Shown: piece by piece, positions 9,248 through 27,959 of the stretch
Layout: each line of letters opens with the position of its first letter
Numbering within the stretch: the stretch's first letter is position 1
DNA from: a virus
Direction: 5' to 3' (one strand)
Virus record (IMG/VR): IMGVR_UViG_3300026183_000028
Span: 1 to 29,727 of that record
DNA: 29,727 bases
The notes under the pieces: generated by a model
What the model was told of the DNA's origin: nothing
Seen by the model: only the letters and a program-made list of their open reading frames with translations
Database searches by the model: none
Program-made: the position numbers and the translations under genes

Positions 9248-9808
9248 TTATGTAACTAGTATTTCGGGGTGTTTTTCGGCAACTTTGCGACACATAGTGA
9301 TAAAGTATTCTTGAGAATAAGTCCTTTTCATAAAATTTACATGCTTGTGAACCCACTGAACGTTGTCCAATACATATCCTCTTGAACTATCGATTCTGTC
9401 AATACTAGCATCATTATATCTGTTGGTTCCTATCGTCAGAGGGAGTCCAGTCAATGCGCAACACCTATCTTGTTCAAGAAACAAGTTCCATGCTTCTTCT
9501 TTTGTTATCTCAACTGGGACTTTTGTTCTTACTCCTTGAGTGCGCTCTCTAAGAACATGGTCATGCCACCAGCCTCCAGATATGTCTCCTACACCATTCC
9601 ATTGATGATGGTCTTTGCCTGATTTATGCATTTGACAACCACAAGACTTGACCGGTGACTTCTTTCTAGTCAAGTGGTCTGTCGAGAAAACTTTTTTGTT
9701 GCCGCAGAAACATTCACAAAGCCACGTCCTAGATCCTTGTCTATTTGACGATGCTCTTTCCAAAACAGTCAAATTGTGAAATATTTGACCAATTAAATCT
9801 CTAGCCAT
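9248..9808 (-). CDS. HNH homing endonuclease 2
   Basis: Encodes 186 residues from the ATG at 9808, with GGAGGG 8 nt upstream. The N-terminal part has zinc-type cysteines (CECFCGNKK, SCGCQ) and DNA-contact motifs. The C-terminal part holds CALTGLPL and SIDRIDSSRGYVLDNVQWVH, the HNH nuclease core of this phage family. It is a paralogue of HNH endonuclease 1 (both end DRIDSS...NVQWVHK...N-x-M-K). It directly follows the orphan RNR 3' end and there is no third RNR fragment beyond it. It may be what remains of an older insertion. Confidence 0.85.
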   Translation of the reverse strand: MARDLIGQIFHNLTVLERASSNRQGSRTWLCECFCGNKKVFSTDHLTRKKSPVKSCGCQMHKSGKDHHQWNGVGDISGGWWHDHVLRERTQGVRTKVPVEITKEEAWNLFLEQDRCCALTGLPLTIGTNRYNDASIDRIDSSRGYVLDNVQWVHKHVNFMKRTYSQEYFITMCRKVAEKHPEILVT

Positions 9809-9892: not shown

Positions 9893-10039
9893 TTAAAAGA
9901 TCTCGCAAGATCCTCCTCCGCCACAAGCTATCTCTCCTGACAAATCAGTTTCATCTGATGTCTCTATAACTAGGTCCAAGTCAACGTTTTTGACCAATGA
10001 GAGCATGCTTTCGTAAGTTTCAGCGTCGCAATCCTCATA
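9893..10039 (-). pseudogene. orphan second copy of the RNR C-terminal coding region
   Basis: In one frame it encodes 48 residues, starting YEDCDAETYESML and ending GEIACGGGGSCEIF, then TAA. This aligns without gaps to residues 572-619 of the RNR gene: 36 of 48 residues are identical by my count, including the last 20 and the C-terminal cysteine pair. There is no start codon or Shine-Dalgarno, and an in-frame stop lies two codons upstream, so it is not a gene by itself. The frame has stayed open, which suggests either recent displacement or selection. The stop codon of HNH endonuclease 1 overlaps its first codon. Confidence 0.88.
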
Positions 10040-10592
10040 GATTGGCTACCACCTTCTTACACATCTCGATAAAGTAGTCTTCTCCAAACTTGTTTTTCAT
10101 AACATTGATGTCTTTGTGAACCCACTGAACGTTTTCAACCTCATAGGGTTTGCTGCTATCGATTCGATCAAGAGACCAAGTCTCTTTTGTAAGAGTCATT
10201 CCTGTTAGGGCGCAAATAAAGTCTTGCTCTAACAGTTTCTCTTCAGCCTCTTCTATGGTCAGGTTTAAGGCGATACCTCTCAACTCTGCTCCTCTTTTGA
10301 TTCTATAAAACTTTCGTCCAGATAAAACTTTGGCACCTTTCCAAAAGGGATTGTCTGCCCCTTTCTGATAGTTTCTTTTCTTCATTGCACAATCGTAGCA
10401 TGAATTGGAAACTTGTCTTTCGAGATTTTCACATAATACTGGCTTTTCCAATCCGCAAGCACACCTGCACTTATAAGATAATTTATATTTACTATTTGGA
10501 TTTGCACTAAATGGCTTAGGGTCCAAAAGCTCCCAATCTCCAAATTTATGTCCCGTCTCATAGAGACCATCGTATTTTGATTTTCTAGGCAT
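10035..10592 (-). CDS. HNH homing endonuclease 1
   Basis: Encodes 185 residues from the ATG at 10592, chosen over the GTG at 10601 because AGGAGG lies 8 nt upstream. The N-terminal half has zinc-type cysteines (YKCRCACG, SCYDCAMKK). The C-terminal half has CALTGMTL and SLDRIDSSKPYEVENVQWVH, the HNH core. It is inserted between the RNR stop codon and an orphan second RNR 3' end. Its TGA overlaps the first orphan codon. This is expected if the enzyme cuts RNR genes at that point. Confidence 0.88.
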   Translation of the reverse strand: MPRKSKYDGLYETGHKFGDWELLDPKPFSANPNSKYKLSYKCRCACGLEKPVLCENLERQVSNSCYDCAMKKRNYQKGADNPFWKGAKVLSGRKFYRIKRGAELRGIALNLTIEEAEEKLLEQDFICALTGMTLTKETWSLDRIDSSKPYEVENVQWVHKDINVMKNKFGEDYFIEMCKKVVANL

Positions 10593-10650
10593 AAAAACCA
10601 CCTCCTTGTAAAAATAAATAGTCTTATCTTCATAAAGTGGTGGTTTTTAT
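10591..10650 (-). promoter_or_regulatory. hairpin hiding the ribosome site of HNH endonuclease 1
   Basis: Perfect 12-bp inverted repeat: ATAAAAACCACC (10591-10602) and GGTGGTTTTTAT (10639-10650). In the transcript the 3' arm covers the GG of the Shine-Dalgarno AGGAGG, the spacer and the first two bases of the start codon. Confidence 0.7.
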
Positions 10651-10671: not shown

Positions 10672-12531
10672 CTAGAAGATCTCGCAAGATCCTCCGCCGC
10701 CGCAAGCAATTTCGCCTGATAGATCAGTTTCGTCTGTTGTCTCTACAACGTCATCCAAGTTCACACTTTTCAGTAATGGAAGCATTTCTTCATACTCTTG
10801 CTTGGAGCAGTCCTCGTAAGGAGCTTGCACGTAACTGTGGTTGGAATAAGGAAGAACAGACAAGCCATTATAGACACCGCGATTGTTCCACATCCACTCT
10901 CCAACAGTTTCCCACTCATTATCTTTGATAGATACTGTTGCTGAAACATTGTGAGTATTGCTTCCCTTCTTATGACCTGACTTAATCCATTCGGTAGAAA
11001 CTTTCTTTACTCTCTCGAGCAAATCAAGAGCACTCTCATGGCGCGTAATAGCCCCTTCAGGAGCTTTTTGGGGCACAGATAGGATGGCAGTGTCATGTGG
11101 ACGGAAACGGCAATCTTCGACCAATTCTGGAAGGTTATTCACTAGATATGAATAGATTGCTTCATTCTTTCCAACACGCAAACGACGAATGTAATAGTCA
11201 TTATGCCATGCGTGGATTCCACTTGACGTGCCAAGAGTAAGAGAAGTTGTTCCAGCAGGCTTAACACATGTCTGACGAGCAGCTTGGTTAATGCCGATTT
11301 GCATAGCAACTTGACGGTTCATCTTAGACACTTCCAAAGAAGCTTCAGTCATGTTCAGATCTAGAACAGCACCGGACGCAATACCAGTCATAGAAACGCC
11401 AATAAGGGCGTCTTTTTCCGTTGTGCGTTGCCAGATAGGTCTCAAGTAGTGGAAGTCCGTGTAAGACGCTTGAAGGGTGCCTATGAAGCTTGCAGCGCGT
11501 GATCTAGCGTTAAGATCGTCTTGAGTTGTAACGTCTGAAACATTGATCTCGACCAAGTTGCAGAATTGGAAAGGTCGAAGACCGATCTCGCAACATGGGT
11601 TGCAGCCCCAATCCTTATCGTTTGAGAAATAGAATCCGGGCTCTCCAGAACGAGACTCTTCAACGCGCTTCCATAGATTCATGAATGTTGGCTTGTCGAT
11701 ACGGTGACGCATAACAACTACAGAATTGTTTGCTCGTCCTCGTTGTGGGTTGAGTTCCCACCATGCTCCGGCTTTTGCACCAAGCATGTCTTCGTCGTCA
11801 GCACTGAATAGAGAAATGAGAGCGGCGCGACGAATACCTCCCGCCAAAACCGCATCCGCAATGTGGCAGATGATATCATGAACCTCAATGGGTGAAAGTT
11901 TGTCTCCGTTTTCTTTTGCATCTAAAATTCCCTCTACTTTTACTAAACACTCTCTCAATGGTTGTGGACCGGGAGCCTTACCGCCCGATGTAACCAAGCG
12001 AGCACCTTTTGGTCGAATGTCCGAGAAGTCAAAGCGTAACTTCGATGTGCCTTTGAAGTAAGACATTACAAGAGCCTTAACAGCATCGGCCCAACCTTCG
12101 ATTGAGTCTCCAACAAGAAAACGTCTTGTTCGCTTTGACGAAGGCTTATGAATCTCCGGCAACTTTTCTACGTGGTGGTGTTGCACAGAGTAACCGACAC
12201 CAGTTCCGCCAAGAAGCAAGAACATGATCTCGCCGAACACTCGAGGATCATCAGCAGGCGCATAAGCGCAGTTAAAGATGCGGTTCGGTGAAACCTCGAT
12301 TGGCTTACCTCCGAACTGCATAGAGCGCATGGAAGGAAGAACCTTCTTGTCATACACAAACTTATAGTTCTCCCGAATCTCTTGTTCTAAACTGGGAAAT
12401 TTTTTAATGTGCATTTCCATGTTTCTGGTAACTAATTCATTCCAGTTTTCTCGACGGTTTTTATCCTCGAGATAACGGGCATACTTCATGTGGACGGTGA
12501 TGTCCGATAAAATCTTTTTTTCTAAATCCAT
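10672..12531 (-). CDS. nrdJ: class II (B12-dependent) ribonucleotide reductase
   Basis: Encodes 619 residues, shorter than the 739-aa Lactobacillus enzyme but of common phage size. It reduces ribonucleotides using an adenosylcobalamin-derived thiyl radical. NPCCE at 311-315 gives the N-x-C-x-E active site with C313 as the radical cysteine. C88 and C324 are the likely redox pair (C313 to C324 is 11, as between C408 and C419 in the Lactobacillus enzyme). PAGTTS lies at 425-430. The C-terminal C610-GGGGS-C616 is the swinging pair that is re-reduced by thioredoxin. The start has AGGAGC. The last 48 codons exist in a second copy beyond the adjacent HNH gene, so the current 3' end may be a replacement. 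Confidence 0.94.
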   Translation of the reverse strand: MDLEKKILSDITVHMKYARYLEDKNRRENWNELVTRNMEMHIKKFPSLEQEIRENYKFVYDKKVLPSMRSMQFGGKPIEVSPNRIFNCAYAPADDPRVFGEIMFLLLGGTGVGYSVQHHHVEKLPEIHKPSSKRTRRFLVGDSIEGWADAVKALVMSYFKGTSKLRFDFSDIRPKGARLVTSGGKAPGPQPLRECLVKVEGILDAKENGDKLSPIEVHDIICHIADAVLAGGIRRAALISLFSADDEDMLGAKAGAWWELNPQRGRANNSVVVMRHRIDKPTFMNLWKRVEESRSGEPGFYFSNDKDWGCNPCCEIGLRPFQFCNLVEINVSDVTTQDDLNARSRAASFIGTLQASYTDFHYLRPIWQRTTEKDALIGVSMTGIASGAVLDLNMTEASLEVSKMNRQVAMQIGINQAARQTCVKPAGTTSLTLGTSSGIHAWHNDYYIRRLRVGKNEAIYSYLVNNLPELVEDCRFRPHDTAILSVPQKAPEGAITRHESALDLLERVKKVSTEWIKSGHKKGSNTHNVSATVSIKDNEWETVGEWMWNNRGVYNGLSVLPYSNHSYVQAPYEDCSKQEYEEMLPLLKSVNLDDVVETTDETDLSGEIACGGGGSCEIF

Positions 12532-15256: not shown

Positions 15257-15267
15257 GTAGAAAGTAC

Positions 15268-15296
15268 AAAAAAACCCCAAGACCGAAGTCAAGGGG
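15268..15296 (-). terminator. intrinsic terminator after the orphan recA 3' end
   Basis: On the minus strand CCCC ... GAC-TTCG-GTC ... GGGG forms a stem with a stable UUCG tetraloop and a small internal loop (15275-15296), followed by seven T (15274-15268). It lies about 20 nt after the orphan recA stop, not after the intact recA stop, so the native recA 3' end is probably the orphan copy. Confidence 0.9.
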
Positions 15297-15317
15297 TTAT
15301 TGAGAGTTCCTTCAGGA

Positions 15318-15518
15318 TTAACCTTCGTTGGACTCTTCGTCAATTCCAAAGTTTTTGCCTTCAGAATCAAACTTTTTAATGATTTCTTCATCCATAATGT
15401 CGAATACAACAGAGCGGAACTCATCGTCTTTCAACTTATCTAACCATTGAGTACGTTGGAACTTGTGCTCCTTTCCGTCTCGACCGATTAGTTTGTTCCA
15501 TGCTCCTGCTTTGAAACG
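15318..15518 (-). pseudogene. orphan second copy of the recA C-terminal coding region
   Basis: In one frame it encodes RFKAGAWNKLI, then GKEHKFQRTQWLDKL, then DIMDEEIIKKFDSEGKN, and ends ESNEG with TAA. This aligns with residues 303-365 of the recA gene with one single-residue gap; about 37 of 63 positions are identical by my count. It has no start codon and an in-frame stop five codons before the homology begins, so it is a displaced gene end. An intrinsic terminator follows. The GIY-YIG gene's TGA lies within a few bases of its first homologous codon. Confidence 0.88.
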
Positions 15519-15519
15519 A

Positions 15520-16188
15520 TCATTCGTATCCTTTTATTCGTAAATGAATGTTTTTTATAACAGTTTTACTTACTCCATATTCCTTAGCCAAAGAATAGCG
15601 GCTTTGGCCTCTTTCCAGCTTTTCTCTAATCTCTTGCACAAGAAGATCGTCAGTTATTGCTCTTCTCCACTTCTGATTCTTCATCGTTTCAGAAATTTTT
15701 AACTTATCTCTTTCTGGTCTCTTTCTTCCTAAGTTCGCTTGGCGCATCTTTTCTTTGGTTTCATCGGACATCTTCTTTCCTAAATGGGACTGACGCATCT
15801 TTTCTTTGGTTTCTTCAGAGTGTTTCCTATTTTTCCAGTTCGTGTTGCCTTTTGATTTTTCAGACAATATAGACTTTGTTTCTTCTGTATGTTTGTATCC
15901 AAGTCGATTTCCTGCTATGGGACACATGTTAAACTCTGGACTTAGATCATCAATAAGTCTCTGTTCGTTTTCCAACAATTTACTTCTATCTGAGATTTTC
16001 AAAATCAGCTCAAAAGTAAATGCCTCTTCTCCATACTTGTCCCAAGAGTTTTGCAAATATTTCGAGTGGTGGATGCCTCTTCTTAAAAGAGATTTATGTT
16101 TCATCATCCTTCTCCTCGTGTTCACGGAACTTCCTATGTAAATTTGCGAAGTTATTAAGTTGGTTATTTTATAAATACCAGAAGACAT
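15520..16188 (-). CDS. GIY-YIG homing endonuclease
   Basis: Encodes 222 residues. The GIY-YIG nuclease domain has GIYKITN (4-10), IYIGSS (16-21), an arginine-rich helix, and the metal-binding glutamate region LLENEQRLID. Tandem NUMOD3-type DNA-binding repeats follow (GYKHTEETKS, NRKHSEETKEKMRQSHLG, KKMSDETKEKMRQANLG). The end is a helix-turn-helix-like segment SRYSLAKEYGVSKTVIKNI. It sits between the recA stop codon and an orphan second recA 3' end, the same arrangement as HNH endonuclease 1 at the RNR gene. It is probably a homing enzyme that targets recA. Confidence 0.92.
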   Translation of the reverse strand: MSSGIYKITNLITSQIYIGSSVNTRRRMMKHKSLLRRGIHHSKYLQNSWDKYGEEAFTFELILKISDRSKLLENEQRLIDDLSPEFNMCPIAGNRLGYKHTEETKSILSEKSKGNTNWKNRKHSEETKEKMRQSHLGKKMSDETKEKMRQANLGRKRPERDKLKISETMKNQKWRRAITDDLLVQEIREKLERGQSRYSLAKEYGVSKTVIKNIHLRIKGYE

Positions 16189-16229
16189 CTTGAGTCCCTC
16201 CCTTTATTACTAAGTAGCGGGACTCAAGA
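16188..16229 (-). promoter_or_regulatory. hairpin hiding the ribosome site of the GIY-YIG gene
   Basis: CTTGAGTCCC (16189-16198) and GGGACTCAAG (16219-16228) are perfect inverted repeats, plus one further A-T pair that includes the A of the ATG. The GGGAGGG Shine-Dalgarno overlaps the 3' arm in the transcript. Confidence 0.7.
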
Positions 16230-16251
16230 CGAAGACACCGAAAATAATTAA

Positions 16252-17349
16252 CTATTCTTCTTCTAAATTTATGTTTTTACCTTCAGAATCAAATTTTCTA
16301 ATAATCTCTTCATCGATAATATCATAAACAGCTTGTCGGAATTTATCATTATTTCTCATCTTATCAACCCATTCAGTTCTTCTGAATCGATGCTCATTGC
16401 CCTCAGAGTCAATTAGCGTATTCCAAGCACCAGTCTTAAGACGGGGAGAGCCAGATAACCTAACGGCTTCCAATAAACTCTCTTCATCTTGGATTCCCAC
16501 GTTCTTGCCCCAGAGAATCTTAAAGCCACATGTGCGACCTTCGGATCCGAAACGGGACTTCTCAACCTTTACTTTCACTTCAGATCCTACACGGAGTCCA
16601 GAATCGTCTGTGACATAAGAGGCTTTTGCTTTACGCTTTGTAAGCCAGATTCGAAGAGAACAGAAGTATTCAATTGCCTTTCCGCCGGGAGCAACATAAG
16701 GAGTTGTCATGGCTTCTGCGACGTTTGAAGTAATGTTCGTCTTAAGTTGATTGATTAGCAACATTGTGCATTGCTGATTCGCCAATGGAATAGTAAGCTT
16801 TGGGAAAGCTTTTGCGAAGATGCGGGGCTTCACAGCCATTGACGATTGAGGATTAAAATCACCTTCGAGGTCCTTCTCGGAAGAAGTTGCTGCAATGGAG
16901 TCCCAAATAAATAGAAACTGGGTTTCTGGATACTCGGACATTAGATCCTCAATTGTTTCCAAGGTTTTCTCAACAGAGACTGCTTGGATGTACAAGAAGT
17001 CATCATTAATATCGATACCAGAACTCGTTAAAAAGTTTGGATCGATTGCGGACTCGGCATCGAAATAAACGACACAGTGGCCCATTTTTTGTGCTTGAGA
17101 AGCAATTTGGCAAGCCATGTAAGACTTACCTGCGCTAGATAAACCAGCGAGTTCGGTAATTTTCCCAACGGGAATACCGGCCATCTCACCTCGGCAAATG
17201 ATAGAATCCAACCAGCGTGAGCCAGTTGGAATCCATTCTTTGACTTCGGTAGGATTGTCTTCATTTAGATCGTGAGCAATGTCAAGTCCGACTTTTTTGT
17301 TGACAAACTTTTTCATTGAACCGATATCAATCTTACCAGCCTTGGCCAT
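16252..17349 (-). CDS. RecA/UvsX-type recombinase
   Basis: Encodes 365 residues. The RecA core has Walker A GLSSAGKS (69-76), the catalytic-Glu strand VVYFDAESAID, Walker B-like FLFIWDSIAA, and the loop 2 region LLINQLKTN. It forms ATP-dependent filaments on single-stranded DNA for strand exchange. The last 63 residues also exist as a diverged second copy downstream of the GIY-YIG gene. The intact gene has no terminator after it, whereas the orphan copy does. The start has no strong Shine-Dalgarno and overlaps the lipoprotein stop by 1 nt, so translation may be coupled. Confidence 0.94.
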   Translation of the reverse strand: MAKAGKIDIGSMKKFVNKKVGLDIAHDLNEDNPTEVKEWIPTGSRWLDSIICRGEMAGIPVGKITELAGLSSAGKSYMACQIASQAQKMGHCVVYFDAESAIDPNFLTSSGIDINDDFLYIQAVSVEKTLETIEDLMSEYPETQFLFIWDSIAATSSEKDLEGDFNPQSSMAVKPRIFAKAFPKLTIPLANQQCTMLLINQLKTNITSNVAEAMTTPYVAPGGKAIEYFCSLRIWLTKRKAKASYVTDDSGLRVGSEVKVKVEKSRFGSEGRTCGFKILWGKNVGIQDEESLLEAVRLSGSPRLKTGAWNTLIDSEGNEHRFRRTEWVDKMRNNDKFRQAVYDIIDEEIIRKFDSEGKNINLEEE

Positions 17350-21141: not shown

Positions 21142-21316
21142 CAATTTTTCTCAATTCGGTCGGCCAAAAAGGTACTTCTTTGTCGTCGGGCATGAGAACC
21201 CATAAAATCTTCCATGACGATCCCATTTGCTCAACTTTTGTGACTAAACCAATCATTCCATTCTTGTAGCCAGAAGTCTGGCTTTCTTTTAAAACTACTA
21301 AATCGCCGGCTACCAT
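21128..21316 (-). CDS. small SH3/KOW-like protein
   Basis: Encodes 62 residues, with GGGAG upstream. MVAGDLVVLKESQTSGYKNG, MIGLVTKVEQMG and WKILWVLMPD follow the same G-D-L-V, turn, G-x-V pattern as its neighbour at 20935-21141. It overlaps the polymerase stop by 7 nt. The order of strands suggests a KOW/SH3-like barrel. Function unknown. Confidence 0.6.
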   Translation of the reverse strand: MVAGDLVVLKESQTSGYKNGMIGLVTKVEQMGSSWKILWVLMPDDKEVPFWPTELRKIDDKG

Positions 21317-22497
21317 TTAAACTCCCTCATGTCTCCAAGGTTCTTACCCAAAGAGCAGTTAACCTTAAACCTACCTAGTTTCGTATCTCCGAACATCTCC
21401 GATAATTGTGGGATTAAGAGTCGGTCGTCTCTGTGTAGATCGATGACAACGCTATCATGAACAACGAAAGCAACATGGGATCTCGTTGCCCTAAGAAAAT
21501 TAGAAATTTTGCAAAACCTATCAATGGTGTTGTCTGAGGAAGACGATTGGAGAAGGTAGTTAAGGGCTTTGCGAACGGGAGCATCAATTGACCTTCCAAA
21601 TGGCGTTTGAACCTTTTCTCCGTCATAATATTTTTGTTTAAGGCTTTGTCTATCGTAGAAATCCGATTGGATTGTTGTAGATTCTTCATTGTAGAGCCAA
21701 GCGAATAATTTTGTTTTTGCTTGTTCTCGGCTAAGATCTTTTTTAAAAATGTTTTTGATATTCCACTCATGGATATCCTCCTCTGGTTGTTCGTGGCCTT
21801 GTAGAGCCAACATTGTTCGGACTTCAGCAGCGTTGAAGTCAAGTTCTAGAAACACATCGTTGTTTGGTCTCACATGCTTCTTAAGTTCCTTCTTGAGATT
21901 CAAGATTGGGAACGAGTTCTTTTTTGTTGTCAGTCGACCAGTGACCGTTCCAAAAATGTCATAGTCAACAAATGGGGTTGAATCTCCAAATTGATCGTAA
22001 AGGTGTTTGGCCTTTAAGTCATCTGCGGCGTGACAATAGACTGCGAATGAATTTAAATTCACTGGATGTCGTCTCAACTCTTTCACTGCCGCTTGTGCAC
22101 GTTTTAATAAATTATAGTGCTGTGGTCTCTCAACATTCTCAAACACCCATTTCGTAATTTCATTTTTGGTATCGAAATAGTGTTGAAGATGTTTCTGAGG
22201 AATTAGATCATAAAAGCAAACGCTTGTTAAATCTATCTTTGTTAGCCCAATCGCCTTATAGTGGCTCCTGAGTAGATTATTGACCTCCTCCCAACGCTGG
22301 GTGAGGTGGGGAGGACATGTATCCGTTAGAGATCTGCCTCCAACCAAGAGGCTGGCATAATCAATATCCATGCCGTAAAGATGATCAGAATAAGACCAAG
22401 TTTTGGTTAATCCATCTGGGATTCGATCCCAGACAAACTGTCCATCGATGTAAGTGCCTGCGCAATCTAATTTGTTGTCTAAAAGTTGAAAAAACAT
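21310..22497 (-). CDS. family A DNA polymerase, polymerase domain only
   Basis: Encodes 395 residues from the ATG at 22497 (after GGAGG). The catalytic motifs of Pol I-type enzymes are present in order: motif A LELDFNAAEVR (family D-Y-S-Q-I-E-x-R), motif B REQAKTKLFAWLY with the exact R-xxx-K-xxx-F-xxx-Y spacing of the O helix, and motif C VVHDSVV, where the usual H-D-E reads H-D-S. There is no 3'-5' exonuclease domain and the thumb region is short. The separate FEN-type exonuclease at 13959-14909 may work with it. Promoter P9 lies upstream. Confidence 0.85.
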   Translation of the reverse strand: MFFQLLDNKLDCAGTYIDGQFVWDRIPDGLTKTWSYSDHLYGMDIDYASLLVGGRSLTDTCPPHLTQRWEEVNNLLRSHYKAIGLTKIDLTSVCFYDLIPQKHLQHYFDTKNEITKWVFENVERPQHYNLLKRAQAAVKELRRHPVNLNSFAVYCHAADDLKAKHLYDQFGDSTPFVDYDIFGTVTGRLTTKKNSFPILNLKKELKKHVRPNNDVFLELDFNAAEVRTMLALQGHEQPEEDIHEWNIKNIFKKDLSREQAKTKLFAWLYNEESTTIQSDFYDRQSLKQKYYDGEKVQTPFGRSIDAPVRKALNYLLQSSSSDNTIDRFCKISNFLRATRSHVAFVVHDSVVIDLHRDDRLLIPQLSEMFGDTKLGRFKVNCSLGKNLGDMREFKW

Positions 22498-22547
22498 TTG
22501 CGGTGTCCTCCGAAATATGTTATAATGTATTTGTAACTGATGAATAC

Positions 22548-22576
22548 AGAATAACACATTGGAGGTTGATTGTCAA
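22548..22576 (-). promoter_or_regulatory. sigma70-type promoter P9
   Basis: Minus-strand TTGACA (22571-22576), 17-bp spacer ending TGTGT, TATTCT (22548-22553). The TGA in the -35 box is the stop codon of the 389-codon gene. Drives the polymerase unit. Confidence 0.8.
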
Positions 22577-23742
22577 GTATTTTTTATTCTTTTTGTAAAA
22601 TAAGTCAAAGAGCCGTCTTTCTGGTTGTAGAACGATTTAAACTGATCTTCTACGTAAAGCAAGGCCTTTTCCCTGTCGTGTTTTGCGATGCTCTGAGCAG
22701 ATTGAGAAATCTGTTTCCGAGAGGATGGGGATAGTGGAGAACCCTCAAAAAAGTTTCGCATATTTATATATATTAATAATAAAGTATTATAATGTATATT
22801 AGATTTGTATTTAATATTAGTAATAGATGCTATTGTATTATCATTACATGATTTATACTTTGTGTTATATGGATTAAGATTAACATAAGAATTGTAAGTA
22901 TCCAATAGTAAACTTTCTAATAGATCTAAGTCTCTAAAGATTGTTTTGTCATACTGTTTATCGAACACTGATGTTACTGTTGTTAAGAAATAGCGTTTAC
23001 GATATTCTGCGGTTACTGGTGAGTCAAGATCTGAGATTATAACTCCCGGATTATTTTGGTTTACTCTAAAGCCATATTGTTTTGTTATGTTGATGAAATA
23101 CTTAAATGCTGGGGAATTGAACATTCTCTCTTCCTTAAGAGAATCGTTTGAGAAGTCAAGTTCTGCAATGTCAAGAGCAAGGCCGCTCTGAAACATGTTT
23201 GAATTTAAAGACTTCATGAAATCAGATAAAATAACGGTCTCGACAATGTCCGAATTGATGTAATAGTCAACAAAGACCCTTGTGAAATCTTCGAAATTGT
23301 TAATTTGAGCCTTGTGTTTTATGATAAAGTCATTAAGAATCTTAGACATAGCAGATTCAGATGTCCTTTTAAATGCGATTAGTGGATTCTCATATGATCT
23401 TTTTACTTTTAAAGACGATAAGACTGGATCATCAATGGGGATAACTCCCATTCTACACGCTTTTGCAAAGTGAATCTCCATGTCCTTGAATTGATCAACA
23501 ACAAAGTTCATGGCACGTTGGGATCCAACATCTTGATCAGACACTGTAATGTCTTTGAGAAATTCTTCTTTAACTACAACGGGTTCTAGTAGTCTATTGA
23601 CACGTCCATAAAAAGTTCTTTCGGCAAAACCCATATCGTAGACATGAGGATAGTCTTGTTCAAACGCTTCAAGTTTATACTTTGCCCTTTCAAATGCTAA
23701 CCTACTGGTTTTTAAGCTATTATTTCCATTAAATTTTGTCAT
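22573..23742 (-). CDS. tail/baseplate-associated protein, unknown
   Basis: Encodes 389 residues, helical and polar, with no motif I recognise. Its ATG overlaps the stop of the 1405-codon gene by 1 nt (TAATG), so it is translated with the baseplate-like proteins and is probably a virion component. The coding sequence between about 22757 and 22870 is very AT-rich, giving a run of Asn, Tyr, Ile and Lys codons. Confidence 0.7.
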   Translation of the reverse strand: MTKFNGNNSLKTSRLAFERAKYKLEAFEQDYPHVYDMGFAERTFYGRVNRLLEPVVVKEEFLKDITVSDQDVGSQRAMNFVVDQFKDMEIHFAKACRMGVIPIDDPVLSSLKVKRSYENPLIAFKRTSESAMSKILNDFIIKHKAQINNFEDFTRVFVDYYINSDIVETVILSDFMKSLNSNMFQSGLALDIAELDFSNDSLKEERMFNSPAFKYFINITKQYGFRVNQNNPGVIISDLDSPVTAEYRKRYFLTTVTSVFDKQYDKTIFRDLDLLESLLLDTYNSYVNLNPYNTKYKSCNDNTIASITNIKYKSNIHYNTLLLIYINMRNFFEGSPLSPSSRKQISQSAQSIAKHDREKALLYVEDQFKSFYNQKDGSLTYFTKRIKNT

Positions 23743-26700
23743 TACTCAATAATCCTACTATAATCTCTGACTACCCGTCTGACGTCTAAACTGCCGTTTC
23801 CATTAATTCCTTGAAAATAAACAGTGCCATCGCTCATTTCCGTAAACTGACCTTCTTGTTCCGTAAACTGTTGATTCAACTGCCCACCTGTTGAAGATGT
23901 AGTGGTTTGTCTCGAAATCATTGTTCTCAGCTTCCCAGAATAAGTTCTAATAATGGCTGGGGATTCATTTAGGATCTCACCTGTTATGGTTGAAGTGTTG
24001 GCATTTATTTCATCAGGAGTTTGTCGTGATCTCGCACCGATAATTTCATCAACAATGTCTTCAGGAGATGGTTCTGCTGTCGCACCGATAATTTCATCAA
24101 CAATGTCTTCAGGAGATGGTTCCTCAACCGATGCCACAGTTGAATTGTTTGAATTGACACTAGAAGATGTGCTGCCTTCCTCGAAGTCATAGTTCAGAGC
24201 AGCCAAAATAACGTTCTTGCAATTTGCAAAACCCTGTTCATTGTTTGGATCTTCTGGAGTATAACCGTCGATAGAGCTTGCCTCGCGATCTACATTCTTT
24301 TTCTTAACAATGTTCGGATTTCCTGATTCATCTCCTGAAAAGTACTGCTGAGCCGAGATAGAAGTCGTAAACTTTCCTGGAGTAATAGACGATTTCACTG
24401 ATGTGATCGTGTGATAGCCTCCGATACCTAATTTATTTGCATCCGATCCAGCAACAGTTGGATTAAAATCTTCTCCGCCAATTCCAAATGGGTTGAAAAA
24501 GAATTCCATTCCGGGATAGAATAAGGTATTTCCAAACATTTCTAGATTCGCCACATAGACAGCAGACAGTTGAAGTAGTCCATCGATCCCATTTTGAAAA
24601 AATCGAGCTTCACGAATGTATTGCATGTCAGACTTGGACAGAGATAGAGTCTTTACGAGTCCTGCGTTTTGACCAACATGAACATGGAATCTTCCTCTCT
24701 CGACGTCCTCTCCGTAGTTGCCATTCCCAGCGTAAGTTAGTGTTGAGCCAATGGCGCTAAGGACAACGAACGTGTGAAAGTCTTTAAAGTTGCTATTTGC
24801 ATCGTTCTCCGGTCCTCCACGTAACGGTAGTACACCATAGGTTCGTAAATTCTCTACATCTAAAGCAATAATATCCTCATTTCTATTATTTAAGTCGTAC
24901 CAAACGCTTATTGGGTTCACACCATTGGCCTCAAAGGCTGTAATTTGCGTTGTTTGAAATCTAAGTCGCGTTTCCAACTTTCTATTAACGCAATTTTCGA
25001 TAATCGAAGGCTTAATGAGGTAGTTTGACAAGCTTCTGATGAAATTCATAACAGGAAACGTTTTTCTAGTACTTTTTTGGCTCATGACATTGTCGACAAA
25101 CCATCTTGAAAAGAAGTCAACCGAAATCGGAAGATCCGAGATGTTATAAACTTTTGATCCGCCGGATATTTCTTGAAATGGCTCAAATTCAAATGATCCT
25201 AAAATGATAGAATTTCTATCGTAACCAGTACCAGCCCTTACATTGTCATTGGCATCGTAAACGCAATCTAAAATAGTGTACAATAGGTCTCCAAAATAAA
25301 AAAACTGAACAGACCTGTTTGCCGAATCGATAAATCCAAAATCTTCTGAGCTCTCTGGTAAGTCAGAGTTTAAAACTAGTTTTACATCTGCACCATTGCC
25401 ACCGTCGTCTTGCGATGTTCTTTCTAACTCGCATTTTCGAAAAAACCCCTTCTTTAAAAAATGTTCCTTGTCCTTCTTGTCAATTAATGCCTTGTAAATA
25501 ACTCCTCTATTCTTAAGCCTTGTTATGATAGACGAAAGAGATTGTTTAAGGATAATTTCTTCCTGCGCAGCTAGAGTTGCTTGAAGCTCTTTTAGTTGAT
25601 CTACGCTGCATTCTCTTTTTTGAACCTGTTCTGAAAACGTTTTTGCGTTTTCAATTCTTCTTGCGATTAACTCTGGAGATGCAAGGGCATCGAGTCTTGG
25701 ATGCTTGAGTAAGGATTCAAGATAAGCTCTGTAAGAAATTTTAATTTCAACTGTTCCATCTTTTCCAAAGCTAATGTCGTGGTCGACCATGTTCAAGAAA
25801 AATGACTTATTCGAGACTCTAATAGCTTCAATCTCATCTCTGCTAAACCCATCGGCTTCTGTTGGCAAGACGTAACCGACATCGGCTCTAATTCTATAGA
25901 ATTGAGGCTCATATTGCCTATCCGATTGAATGTCAATCCCCGCGTATTGACCTTTCTTGTCTGGTGTTGGTTGAATTACAAGGTCAACATATCTGTATTC
26001 ATCGCTATATCCTTGTCGAGTCCGAAGAAAATCTTGAAATGATTGAAAGAAAAGTGTTAAATTTGCCGTGATGTCATTGCGTGCGGTCGCTGGTGTCGTC
26101 CCGTTAAATTCAAATGAAAAATTCTTGAGTCCAACACCGGTTCCTTTATCGAACACATTAGGGTTCATGAATGTGTCTCGGATGTTAGATGATCTATCGA
26201 AGATGAATTCTACTTCTTTTTCACCTTTTTCATGATCATGAAAAACTTTAAATAGCCTTACTTTTGGCACAAGCTTTGAAACCTTCCACGACTCTAGTTC
26301 GAATAGCAGCTGCTCGTTTTTAGAAGAAACTAGACTCGTCAACATTGTCTCTTGCTCTTTATCTTTTGCATAAAGCGTTGTAAATCTTCCTCCAAATGGA
26401 AGTTTTCTTGCATATCTTTGCTTAAGTTTTTGTTGATAGCTATCTCTTAGCTCCGGCATGTTCAACATAAGAGCGCATTGCTTAAAGTACTTTTGTCGAT
26501 TTGCGACGTCTTCTTCGGATGGCCCTGACCCTTCGGGAATGTCTCCCCCTTGACCTTCTTTGAATGTCTGCAACGAATTTCTATAGGCTCTTTCTTTCTC
26601 CTCTTCTGTTATCGCTGCTCCACCAGGGGATTCTTCTGAGGTTGCAGCAGCCAAGTTGTCAAAAAATTTCTTTTTTGCTGAGATGATTTTCTCAAAAACA

Positions 26701-27959
26701 ATGAGTTCTTGAATTTTGAACGTGTAGATTGATTTTACTGCTTTATCATAGTGTTCCATGATTGTGTCGTTAAGAGAGCCATCATCCAAATCGGAAATTA
26801 AAGAAATTAAAAAATCTATATATCCCAATGTCACCAAAGCTTCGATTCGCTCGCTTGATGTGACAAAGTCATTCACGAACCCGACCATCGCCCTTTGGAC
26901 ATACCATTGTGACGGTGTGTCTGTGAGGTCCCAACCAAGAAAATTCTCATGCCTTATAGGATGTCTTTGGAATCTGAAATTATATTCTGTGATCATAGTG
27001 TCTTCTAAATCATTGAACTCTTCTAAATCTTTTTTTAAATCACTGTAAACATTTCCTTGTGCTCCTTTAATAATTGCATCTGGGAAACGTAGAACCGCAG
27101 GGGTTTTAAAAGATCTTGCTTCATCATCCGATAGTGCATCCTTGGGAACTTTGGTTTGTTCGCCACTATAAATTTTATCAGATAGAGTATAATAACCATC
27201 ATCGCCAAGAGTCAGTCCTATGTAATAATCAACGTCTGCTTTATCAAGCACGAGGGAAATGCGGGTCAACCCTTCAATCGAAGTACCAGCACCTCTTGCT
27301 GCTTTTCTGATATTTTCGGTAATATGCTTTGAGATCGATCTTTGATATTCTTTGAATGTTACATTTTCCCTAACAAATTGTCCAATAAGTTTCGTCGTAG
27401 CTCTGTCTAAAGCATCGGTTTGACTCATTCTTACCACATGTTCTGTGAATGGTATAATGAAGTTTTCACTCATGTCCTTAAAGATTAGTCTCTTGGGATA
27501 AAGCTCCGTGACACTCAGTCCTAATCCAATCTCAACTTCTCTAGTTGACCAGATGTGTCCCTGATTCATGAAAATTCTTAAAATAGAATCATCGGAAGAT
27601 TCGATCATTTTTTTCTTTTGGGCGGGTGTATAATTCTTATAGACGCTGAATGGATCTTCGTCATCGAAAACTCCAAGACCAACTCTTTCATTAATCCAAT
27701 CATTAATATCAACATGTAATTTTTCAACATTTTCTTCTGTTATGACATAGATTCCAAGAGCCAAGCCAAATGCGTAACCCTGGATAAGACCAGAGCCTTG
27801 AAGGGTCGACACTTTAGTTGGTTCATTGCCAACTGCGTAATTAAAAAGTTCCGTCGATGCGAATAAAACACTTTCGACTGGATTGAAATCCGTGTTATCA
27901 GCAAACAGTGCCGCTATGTTTTGGATTTCGTAATGATCTTTTTCTAAGAATTCACTCAT
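23742..27959 (-). CDS. large baseplate-like structural protein (1405 aa)
   Basis: This is the largest gene of the window. Its position after tape measure, a tail protein and LysM matches the baseplate hub/wedge slot of contractile-tail phages (P2 order T-U-X-D). About the first 500 residues are helical and charged. Around 600-760 there is a beta-rich part (VGLKNFSFEFNG, TANLTLFFQSFQDFL). Near 1150-1260 there is a second beta-rich domain (YPGMEFFFNPFGIGG, LGIGGYHTITSVKSSI) that resembles tail-protein barrels. The last 150 residues are Ser/Thr/Gly-rich and include an exact tandem repeat of SPEDIVDEIIGA. The ATG overlaps the LysM stop (ATGA). Confidence 0.75.
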   Translation of the reverse strand: MSEFLEKDHYEIQNIAALFADNTDFNPVESVLFASTELFNYAVGNEPTKVSTLQGSGLIQGYAFGLALGIYVITEENVEKLHVDINDWINERVGLGVFDDEDPFSVYKNYTPAQKKKMIESSDDSILRIFMNQGHIWSTREVEIGLGLSVTELYPKRLIFKDMSENFIIPFTEHVVRMSQTDALDRATTKLIGQFVRENVTFKEYQRSISKHITENIRKAARGAGTSIEGLTRISLVLDKADVDYYIGLTLGDDGYYTLSDKIYSGEQTKVPKDALSDDEARSFKTPAVLRFPDAIIKGAQGNVYSDLKKDLEEFNDLEDTMITEYNFRFQRHPIRHENFLGWDLTDTPSQWYVQRAMVGFVNDFVTSSERIEALVTLGYIDFLISLISDLDDGSLNDTIMEHYDKAVKSIYTFKIQELIVFEKIISAKKKFFDNLAAATSEESPGGAAITEEEKERAYRNSLQTFKEGQGGDIPEGSGPSEEDVANRQKYFKQCALMLNMPELRDSYQQKLKQRYARKLPFGGRFTTLYAKDKEQETMLTSLVSSKNEQLLFELESWKVSKLVPKVRLFKVFHDHEKGEKEVEFIFDRSSNIRDTFMNPNVFDKGTGVGLKNFSFEFNGTTPATARNDITANLTLFFQSFQDFLRTRQGYSDEYRYVDLVIQPTPDKKGQYAGIDIQSDRQYEPQFYRIRADVGYVLPTEADGFSRDEIEAIRVSNKSFFLNMVDHDISFGKDGTVEIKISYRAYLESLLKHPRLDALASPELIARRIENAKTFSEQVQKRECSVDQLKELQATLAAQEEIILKQSLSSIITRLKNRGVIYKALIDKKDKEHFLKKGFFRKCELERTSQDDGGNGADVKLVLNSDLPESSEDFGFIDSANRSVQFFYFGDLLYTILDCVYDANDNVRAGTGYDRNSIILGSFEFEPFQEISGGSKVYNISDLPISVDFFSRWFVDNVMSQKSTRKTFPVMNFIRSLSNYLIKPSIIENCVNRKLETRLRFQTTQITAFEANGVNPISVWYDLNNRNEDIIALDVENLRTYGVLPLRGGPENDANSNFKDFHTFVVLSAIGSTLTYAGNGNYGEDVERGRFHVHVGQNAGLVKTLSLSKSDMQYIREARFFQNGIDGLLQLSAVYVANLEMFGNTLFYPGMEFFFNPFGIGGEDFNPTVAGSDANKLGIGGYHTITSVKSSITPGKFTTSISAQQYFSGDESGNPNIVKKKNVDREASSIDGYTPEDPNNEQGFANCKNVILAALNYDFEEGSTSSSVNSNNSTVASVEEPSPEDIVDEIIGATAEPSPEDIVDEIIGARSRQTPDEINANTSTITGEILNESPAIIRTYSGKLRTMISRQTTTSSTGGQLNQQFTEQEGQFTEMSDGTVYFQGINGNGSLDVRRVVRDYSRIIE
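24033..24122 (-). repeat. tandem 48-bp repeat in the 1405-codon gene
   Basis: 42 bp at 24033-24074 recur identically at 24081-24122 (period 48 bp, 16 codons), each encoding EPSPEDIVDEIIGA. The identity at DNA level indicates a recent in-frame duplication. Confidence 0.9.

Follow-up and report, generated by a model that had tools for sequence, protein, structure and literature searches.

How does a phage gene that is complete from start to stop come to be followed, behind a nuclease gene, by a second version of its own 3' end? The question is raised by recA, which encodes a UvsX/RecA-like recombinase, in a stretch of viral DNA of 29,727 nt (IMG/VR record IMGVR_UViG_3300026183_000028, positions 1 to 29,727), here called the window. 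The full-length recA (copy 1) is followed by the gene of a GIY-YIG homing endonuclease and then by a recA 3' end, the orphan. A parallel arrangement occurs in the same window at the gene of a class II ribonucleotide reductase (RNR). The answer to which the comparisons point is that a mobile cassette, composed of a foreign re-coded 3' end, a hairpin-locked leader and a homing endonuclease gene, very probably entered recA by copying, and that the RNR gene received another cassette, unrelated to the first.

A preliminary description of the locus, made from the sequence alone, regarded recA as complete to position 16252 and as being followed by a GIY-YIG endonuclease. The recA product matches the Pfam RecA family (1e-36) and a phage UvsX-like family (2e-62). 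The nuclease assignment is equally sound, as the product contains both the catalytic domain (Pfam GIY-YIG, 4.5e-9) and the modular DNA-binding part (NUMOD3, 4.2e-10), matches a PHROG homing endonuclease family (6.6e-35), and retains the motif residues G4, Y6, Y17, I18, G19, R27, E75 and N87, which are invariant in an alignment of five sequences. The orphan aligns to recA residues 303-365 with 59-61% identity, in agreement with the roughly 59% first reported, but the in-frame homology begins one codon earlier than originally described, running from GAT at 15521 to the stop codon at 15318. The local alignment score is 220, whereas 1000 shuffles averaged 29.7 and never exceeded 56. The TGA stop of the endonuclease gene (15522-15520) does overlap the first homologous codon of the orphan, and it coincides with a native T/GAT at the junction. 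The intrinsic terminator likewise lies where it had been placed, behind the orphan, and none was seen behind copy 1. The next gene on the minus strand after orphan and terminator is thioredoxin-like.

Which of the two ends is native was judged from 80 loci (L001-L080) obtained by an IMG/VR scan with the recA protein, all 80 of which carry an uninterrupted recA. Over the last ~66 residues, the closest relatives (L001, L003, L004, L005 and L006) share 92-95% identity with the orphan but 56-60% with the copy-1 tail, and the terminator is shared as well. An uninterrupted recA ending like copy 1, named in the preliminary description as counter-evidence, did not appear: none of the 80 relatives is closer than ~60% to the copy-1 end. 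Window positions 15522-14904, comprising orphan, terminator and thioredoxin-like gene, align with L004 without a gap (94.5% over 619 bp), and L004 can therefore be taken as the uninterrupted form of the window locus. This collinearity also rules out that the orphan stems from an independent second recA gene, the other objection raised at the outset.

The comparison with L004 also locates the edges of the inserted segment. Copy-1 recA has no mismatch to L004 over coding nt 600-844 (245 nt) and then 44 in the next 115 nt. The left breakpoint is situated between 16505 and 16504, at about codon 282 and ~20 codons upstream of the duplicated stretch, and everything from 16504 down to position 15520, where the nuclease stop ends, is foreign. 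The orphan resumes at codon 302, which is the insertion point, so ~20 native recA codons have been replaced. Copy 1 is thus complete as first described, but it is a hybrid of a native body and ~83 foreign final codons, beginning at about codon 282 (16504). The inserted unit comprises the foreign tail, the hairpin leader and the GIY-YIG gene, and the orphan is the native recA end, as the preliminary description had proposed from the position of the terminator.

Both ends carry traces of their histories. Between the copy-1 tail and every native tail tested, synonymous differences amount to 0.73-0.90 per site, which is near saturation, and non-synonymous differences to 0.22-0.28. Because the latter are fewer, the copy-1 tail must have evolved as a working protein end; it forms the longest end branch in the tail tree. 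The orphan, in turn, has not decayed: it contains no stop or frameshift, its ratio of non-synonymous to synonymous rates (dN/dS) to the natives is about 0.1, and it differs from them by 9-13 synonymous and 3-6 non-synonymous changes, similar to the differences of natives from each other. The recA insertion, or its latest renewal, appears to be recent. An undecayed orphan might instead be kept for a function, for example as a fragment, of RNA or of protein, that acts on RecA, or as an alternative C-terminus reached by frameshift, splicing or trans-splicing. Such a role is very unlikely, as the missing decay is equally compatible with a recent insertion, the orphan has no evident in-frame start ahead of its homologous stretch and sits directly behind the nuclease stop, and copy 1 is complete without any intron- or intein-like insertion. 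In fungi with a comparable arrangement, the native ends of atp6 and cox2 are not expressed (PMC3630166). A group I intron or intein was also considered and rejected. The Rfam scan of the window returned only a tRNA and no intron, copy-1 recA aligns end to end with the 80 uninterrupted genes without an inserted segment, and excision would not restore a single-copy gene.

The RNR gene provides the parallel. RNR gene, endonuclease and RNR orphan are all present in the window as the preliminary description had it, and the orphan is followed by a second endonuclease gene. Both nucleases, H1 behind the RNR gene and H2 behind the orphan, match the PHROG endonuclease VII family. In L095, a 94% identical H2 gene directly adjoins an uninterrupted RNR gene and H1 is absent, so L095 represents the state before the H1 cassette; H2 belonged to the native RNR locus before H1 arrived. 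A search with the nuclease family yielded two more RNR cassettes with orphans, in L252 (within a contig of 183,930 bp), whose nuclease is 89% identical to H1, and in L253, where the value is 62%. In all three cassettes, the nuclease TGA coincides with a native xxT GAx at one shared RNR codon, ~573.

Tail and body of these RNR genes have different affinities. The copy-1 tails of the window, L252 and L253 are 91-98% identical to one another, and in the comparison of the window with L253 the tail (94%) is more similar than the body (85%). Compared with L093-L096, the relation is reversed, with bodies at 93-95% and tails at 70-75% (for L093, 95% and 72%). The tail tree unites the three copy-1 tails with a support of 100/99, and approximately unbiased (AU) tests rejected both the grouping of the three carriers for the RNR body (p 0.011) and a tail tree in which the copy-1 tails of the window and L252 fall among the natives (p 0.014). 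The leader DNA is 95-98% identical among the three cassettes, and the middle of the L253 nuclease gene reaches only 45-65% at the DNA level. The discordance of tail and body, the AU tests and the conserved leader together indicate that tail, leader and nuclease travel together.

These relationships bear on two simpler explanations. Two 3' ends in tandem could result from duplication within one genome, with the endonuclease gene coming to lie between the copies and one copy diverging afterwards, and segmental amplification driven by an endonuclease has been reported in phage (PMC13096335). The two recA ends are only 59-61% identical, however, and the orphan is 92-95% identical to the native ends of other phages. 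The divergence moreover begins abruptly inside the intact recA, and the RNR copy-1 tail groups with those of other cassettes and not with its own orphan. Duplication is contradicted by the divergence and the trees, and we regard it as extremely improbable. It is just as improbable that an assembly joined the recA 3' ends of two strains in a metagenome contig. The window and its close relatives are indeed metagenome contigs, and two records, L081 and L347, break off within a cassette or at its border, as would be expected at an assembly bubble. Against such a chimera, recA and RNR both have the join precisely on the stop codon of the nuclease, and three separate IMG/VR records (the window, L253 and L252, the last embedded in 184 kb) show the RNR form at one codon. 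L347, a separate record of the L253 type, repeats gene end, tail and leader of L253 with 100% identity; as it is identical over the compared stretch, it was not counted as independent.

Further RNR loci show other disruptions. The RNR gene of L252 is interrupted after codon 314 by ~1.3 kb (1236-2502), in addition to its tail cassette, and those of L283 and L268-L270 are split at codons 313 or 427. These interruptions are probably inteins or introns.

A second recA case is provided by L081, where a 78% identical endonuclease gene is followed by a recA 3' end, beginning near codon 332, and a terminator; the tail tree assigns this end to the L042/L046-type lineage. Other GIY-YIG genes, ~34% identical in the matched part, are found behind the recA terminator in L009 (2855-3667) and downstream of recA in L015/L016, where no gene end is displaced. 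GIY-YIG genes thus land repeatedly in the 3' flank of recA.

Table 1. Features of the recA and RNR loci in the window.
Feature	Position	Strand	Basis or remark
recA (UvsX/RecA-like recombinase)	17349-16252	(-)	365 codons, full-length reading frame
Native recA body, codons 1 to ~281	16505..17349	(-)	no mismatch to L004 over coding nt 600-844; Pfam RecA
Foreign replacement recA tail, ~last 83 codons, in frame with native body	16252..16504	(-)	divergence from L004, tail tree
Gap between recA stop and GIY-YIG gene			63 nt
Hairpin leader of GIY-YIG gene, CTTGAGTCCC...GGGACTCAAG	16189..16228	(-)	fold -26 kcal/mol, z -3.66
GIY-YIG/NUMOD3 homing endonuclease, 222 aa	15520..16188	(-)	Pfam, PHROG, motif residues, 78% relative in L081
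Orphan, native recA 3' end, codon 302 to stop, without own start	15318..15521	(-)	92-95% aa identity to L001/L003/L004/L005/L006 ends
Native intrinsic recA terminator	~15267..15299	(-)	same stem behind recA of L001, L003, L004, L005, L006
Class II RNR, foreign tail from ~codon 556	10672..12531	(-)	PHROG RNR 2.9e-127
Hairpin leader of H1, CTATTTATT (10613-10621) in loop	10593..10650	(-)	fold -34.1 kcal/mol, z -6.81
H1, HNH/endonuclease VII-like homing endonuclease	10035..10592	(-)	PHROG endonuclease VII 1.4e-20
RNR orphan, native 3' end (YEDC...SCEIF)	9893..10039	(-)	75% to copy 1, 83-91% to natives L093-L096
H2, second endonuclease behind RNR orphan	9248..9808	(-)	in L095, a 94% identical gene adjoins uninterrupted RNR

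Elsewhere on the minus strand of the window, a 1405-aa open frame without PHROG match (23742-27959) lies near a DNA polymerase-like gene (21310-22557), and 287-1018 encodes a member of the MvaI/BcnI restriction endonuclease family (Pfam 9e-23).

The three nuclease genes of the window all start inside stable hairpins (z -3.66, -6.81 and -5.13), and in the predicted fold the leader of the recA-associated endonuclease gene buries the ribosome-binding site. Start-sequestering hairpins of this kind are known for I-TevI, segB and Aeh1 mobE (PMC2988022). CTATTTATT lies in the loop of the H1 hairpin, and its variant CTACTTAGT (16209-16217) in that of the recA nuclease; a search with the recA-leader pattern gave no match. 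In the 184-kb contig of L252 (G001), CTATTTATT is found seven times on one strand and not at all on the other. Two of these sites are in nuclease leaders, four lie ~28-38 nt upstream of open frames that, judged by eye, resemble virion or late genes, and one is elsewhere. These few sites make CTATTTATT a candidate for a late promoter in the phage group concerned, which may allow late transcripts to escape the hairpin.

How the cassette could move may be envisaged as follows. In a co-infecting phage, the endonuclease would cut an uninterrupted allele within its conserved 3' portion. Of the two broken ends, the left one would then invade the donor in the gene body and copy the donor tail together with the endonuclease gene, and the right end would be joined at the insertion point, thereby stranding the recipient's own 3' end and terminator downstream. 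The gene would be kept whole, with body and donor tail in frame and no need for an intron or intein, and the re-coded tail, presumably lacking the target site, would resist re-cutting. In later transfers, the stranded native end could serve as the right homology arm, which would explain why different RNR alleles share the junction codon. The hairpin would keep the nuclease untranslated on recA or RNR read-through mRNA, and the promoter-like motif in its loop would permit late expression. A phage recA is a plausible target, since a GIY-YIG Seg enzyme of T4 cuts uvsX, which corresponds to recA in the phage (PMC2988022).

The arrangement with an orphan has to be seen against the frequency of simpler ones. 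In the RNR scan, six of 80 relatives have a nuclease of the H1 family within 250 nt behind the RNR stop; when the nuclease-based scan is included, a same-family nuclease is found at this distance in 42 of 117 loci. The orphan form is the minority form of a common habit, the parking of a nuclease behind its target gene. A screen of ~340 loci for a gene, a nuclease and a repeated gene end gave clear cases only for recA and RNR of the window, L252 and L253; the remaining hits had the appearance of internal repeats, of paralogous nucleases or of low-complexity frames. L081 escapes the screen because its upstream part is missing. The suggestion of one architecture shared by two nuclease families gains support from the recurrence, for RNR in the window, L252 and L253 and for recA in the window and L081, with the qualification that the orphan is the minority outcome. 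A search of INPHARED gave no relative above 60% for either nuclease and no match to the orphan, and none of seven loci with related nucleases in cultured phages has a displaced gene end. Related nucleases occur in the Streptomyces phages Patelgo, Limpid, Kenrey and LukeCage (L339-L342) and the Bacillus phages FADO and PJN02 (L343, L344), directly behind a gene for a Ro-like RNA-binding protein or an RNA ligase, and these cultured phages are possible laboratory models.

The same frequencies give weight to the main rival, namely that the orphan is a scar and not part of a strategy. A free-standing endonuclease behind its target would have moved by co-conversion, the foreign tail being the co-conversion tract, and a single illegitimate right join, caused by a mismatch of donor and recipient downstream, would have stranded the native end. 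Both co-conversion and the protection of one end only have precedents in I-TevI (PMC2988022). Moreover, in L255 and L257 the last ~25 RNR residues beside the nuclease are nearly identical and the preceding ones differ, which is likely a co-conversion tract without an orphan. Against the scar explanation stand the junction codon that three RNR cassettes share despite differences of up to 38% between their nucleases, and the movement of tail, leader and nuclease as a unit. We consider it somewhat improbable, yet far from negligible.

Several further points weigh against a dedicated cassette. Among the 42 RNR loci with a nuclease behind the stop, only L252 and L253 have an orphan, and a single accident followed by ordinary homologous spread would also give the shared junction codon and the joint travel, so that the two explanations overlap; the element may itself have originated by intronless homing with co-conversion and one illegitimate right join. 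The viral contigs yielded no uninterrupted lineage that could have donated the recA tail, the best natives reaching ~60-63%, and the tail tree was built on 135 columns. The L081 contig stops at the endonuclease start, so that its copy-1 tail is unseen, and its orphan begins ~30 codons later than that of the window, which could be due to a secondary deletion. Finally, cleavage, mobility, target site, repair route and regulation are inferred. The native and foreign assignments, the breakpoints, the recurrence and the joint travel of tail and nuclease, by comparison, can be read from the alignments and trees. On balance, the mobile cassette remains the reading that we prefer.

The architecture itself is not new to biology, being present in fungal mitochondria. 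In Glomus, atp6, atp9, cox2 and nad3 show the same anatomy, with hybrid transcripts (Beaudet 2013, PMC3630166), and precedents in Allomyces atp6, Rhizopus atp9 and Mortierella cox2 are cited in the same work, including Paquin 1994. As in these mobile open reading frames (ORFs), a foreign in-frame C-terminal sequence and an endonuclease ORF behind it have displaced the native C-terminal sequence downstream. In the fungi, the ORFs are of the LAGLIDADG or GIY-YIG type, and the displaced C-terminal sequence resembles relatives more than the inserted one does (PMC3630166). In the window, too, a diverged second 3' end lies downstream of each nuclease (59-61% identity to copy 1 for recA, 75% for RNR), and in both genes the displaced copy is native and the in-frame copy foreign. 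Whereas the fungal elements reside in respiratory genes of organelle DNA and some of their ORFs are fused in phase with the gene, the phage cassettes affect recA and class II RNR and contain a separate nuclease gene, of the GIY-YIG or the HNH/endonuclease VII type, with a hairpin leader of bacterial type.

With the free-standing homing endonucleases of T4 (Seg, Mob), which co-convert flanking markers (PMC2988022), the cassettes share the position of the nuclease beside a replication or nucleotide gene, outside any intron or intein, and the ribosome-binding site in a hairpin, as seen for the three window genes. The T4 genes, however, lie hundreds to thousands of bp from the cut site, and no displaced gene end is described for them (PMC2988022). 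Their targets are whole and single-copy, whereas recA and RNR of the window are split, their native ends being displaced, and the cassettes carry a replacement end. In Aeh1 nrdA-mobE ('genes in pieces') and in the split phage RNR genes surveyed elsewhere (PMC3653736), a homing endonuclease likewise lies inside an RNR gene, but there the gene is encoded in two pieces, while the window has a complete copy upstream and a redundant piece downstream. Dwivedi et al. treat split phage RNR genes and identified no duplicated RNR genes in phage genomes (PMC3653736). Endonucleases of group I introns and inteins also occupy a precise site in a conserved gene whose product is retained; here, no intron or intein is involved, and what rescues the gene is a spare end that has been re-coded. 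F-CphI of cyanophage S-PM2 is a homing endonuclease with an endonuclease VII motif (PMC6083498); the likeness of H1 and H2 to it consists of the PHROG match, and unlike F-CphI they sit behind RNR. No earlier phage example of a replacement-end cassette was found in the open-access literature with partly narrow searches, so that the architecture is known from fungal mitochondria (atp6, atp9, cox2, nad3) and its occurrence in phage recA and RNR is new as far as we found.

More broadly, tailed phages may carry a distinct and recurring class of homing elements that avoid destroying the gene they enter by bringing a re-coded, cut-resistant 3' end of the target, and for which the displaced native end acts as the homology arm on the right. 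They would be nature's equivalent of homing drives with a re-coded rescue. Such a class would have arisen with two or more unrelated nuclease folds and in two core replication genes, and would repeatedly swap the C-termini of RecA and RNR between phage lineages; this remains a tentative proposal, which we rate just short of probable. The cassettes indicate that an intron or intein is not the only route by which a homing endonuclease can reside inside a core phage gene, as a spare re-coded end also works. They account for chimeric 3' ends of recA and RNR in phage populations and call for caution with phage RecA and RNR phylogenies, which can be mosaic at the C-terminus. They also provide a testable natural model for homing elements that bring their own rescue.
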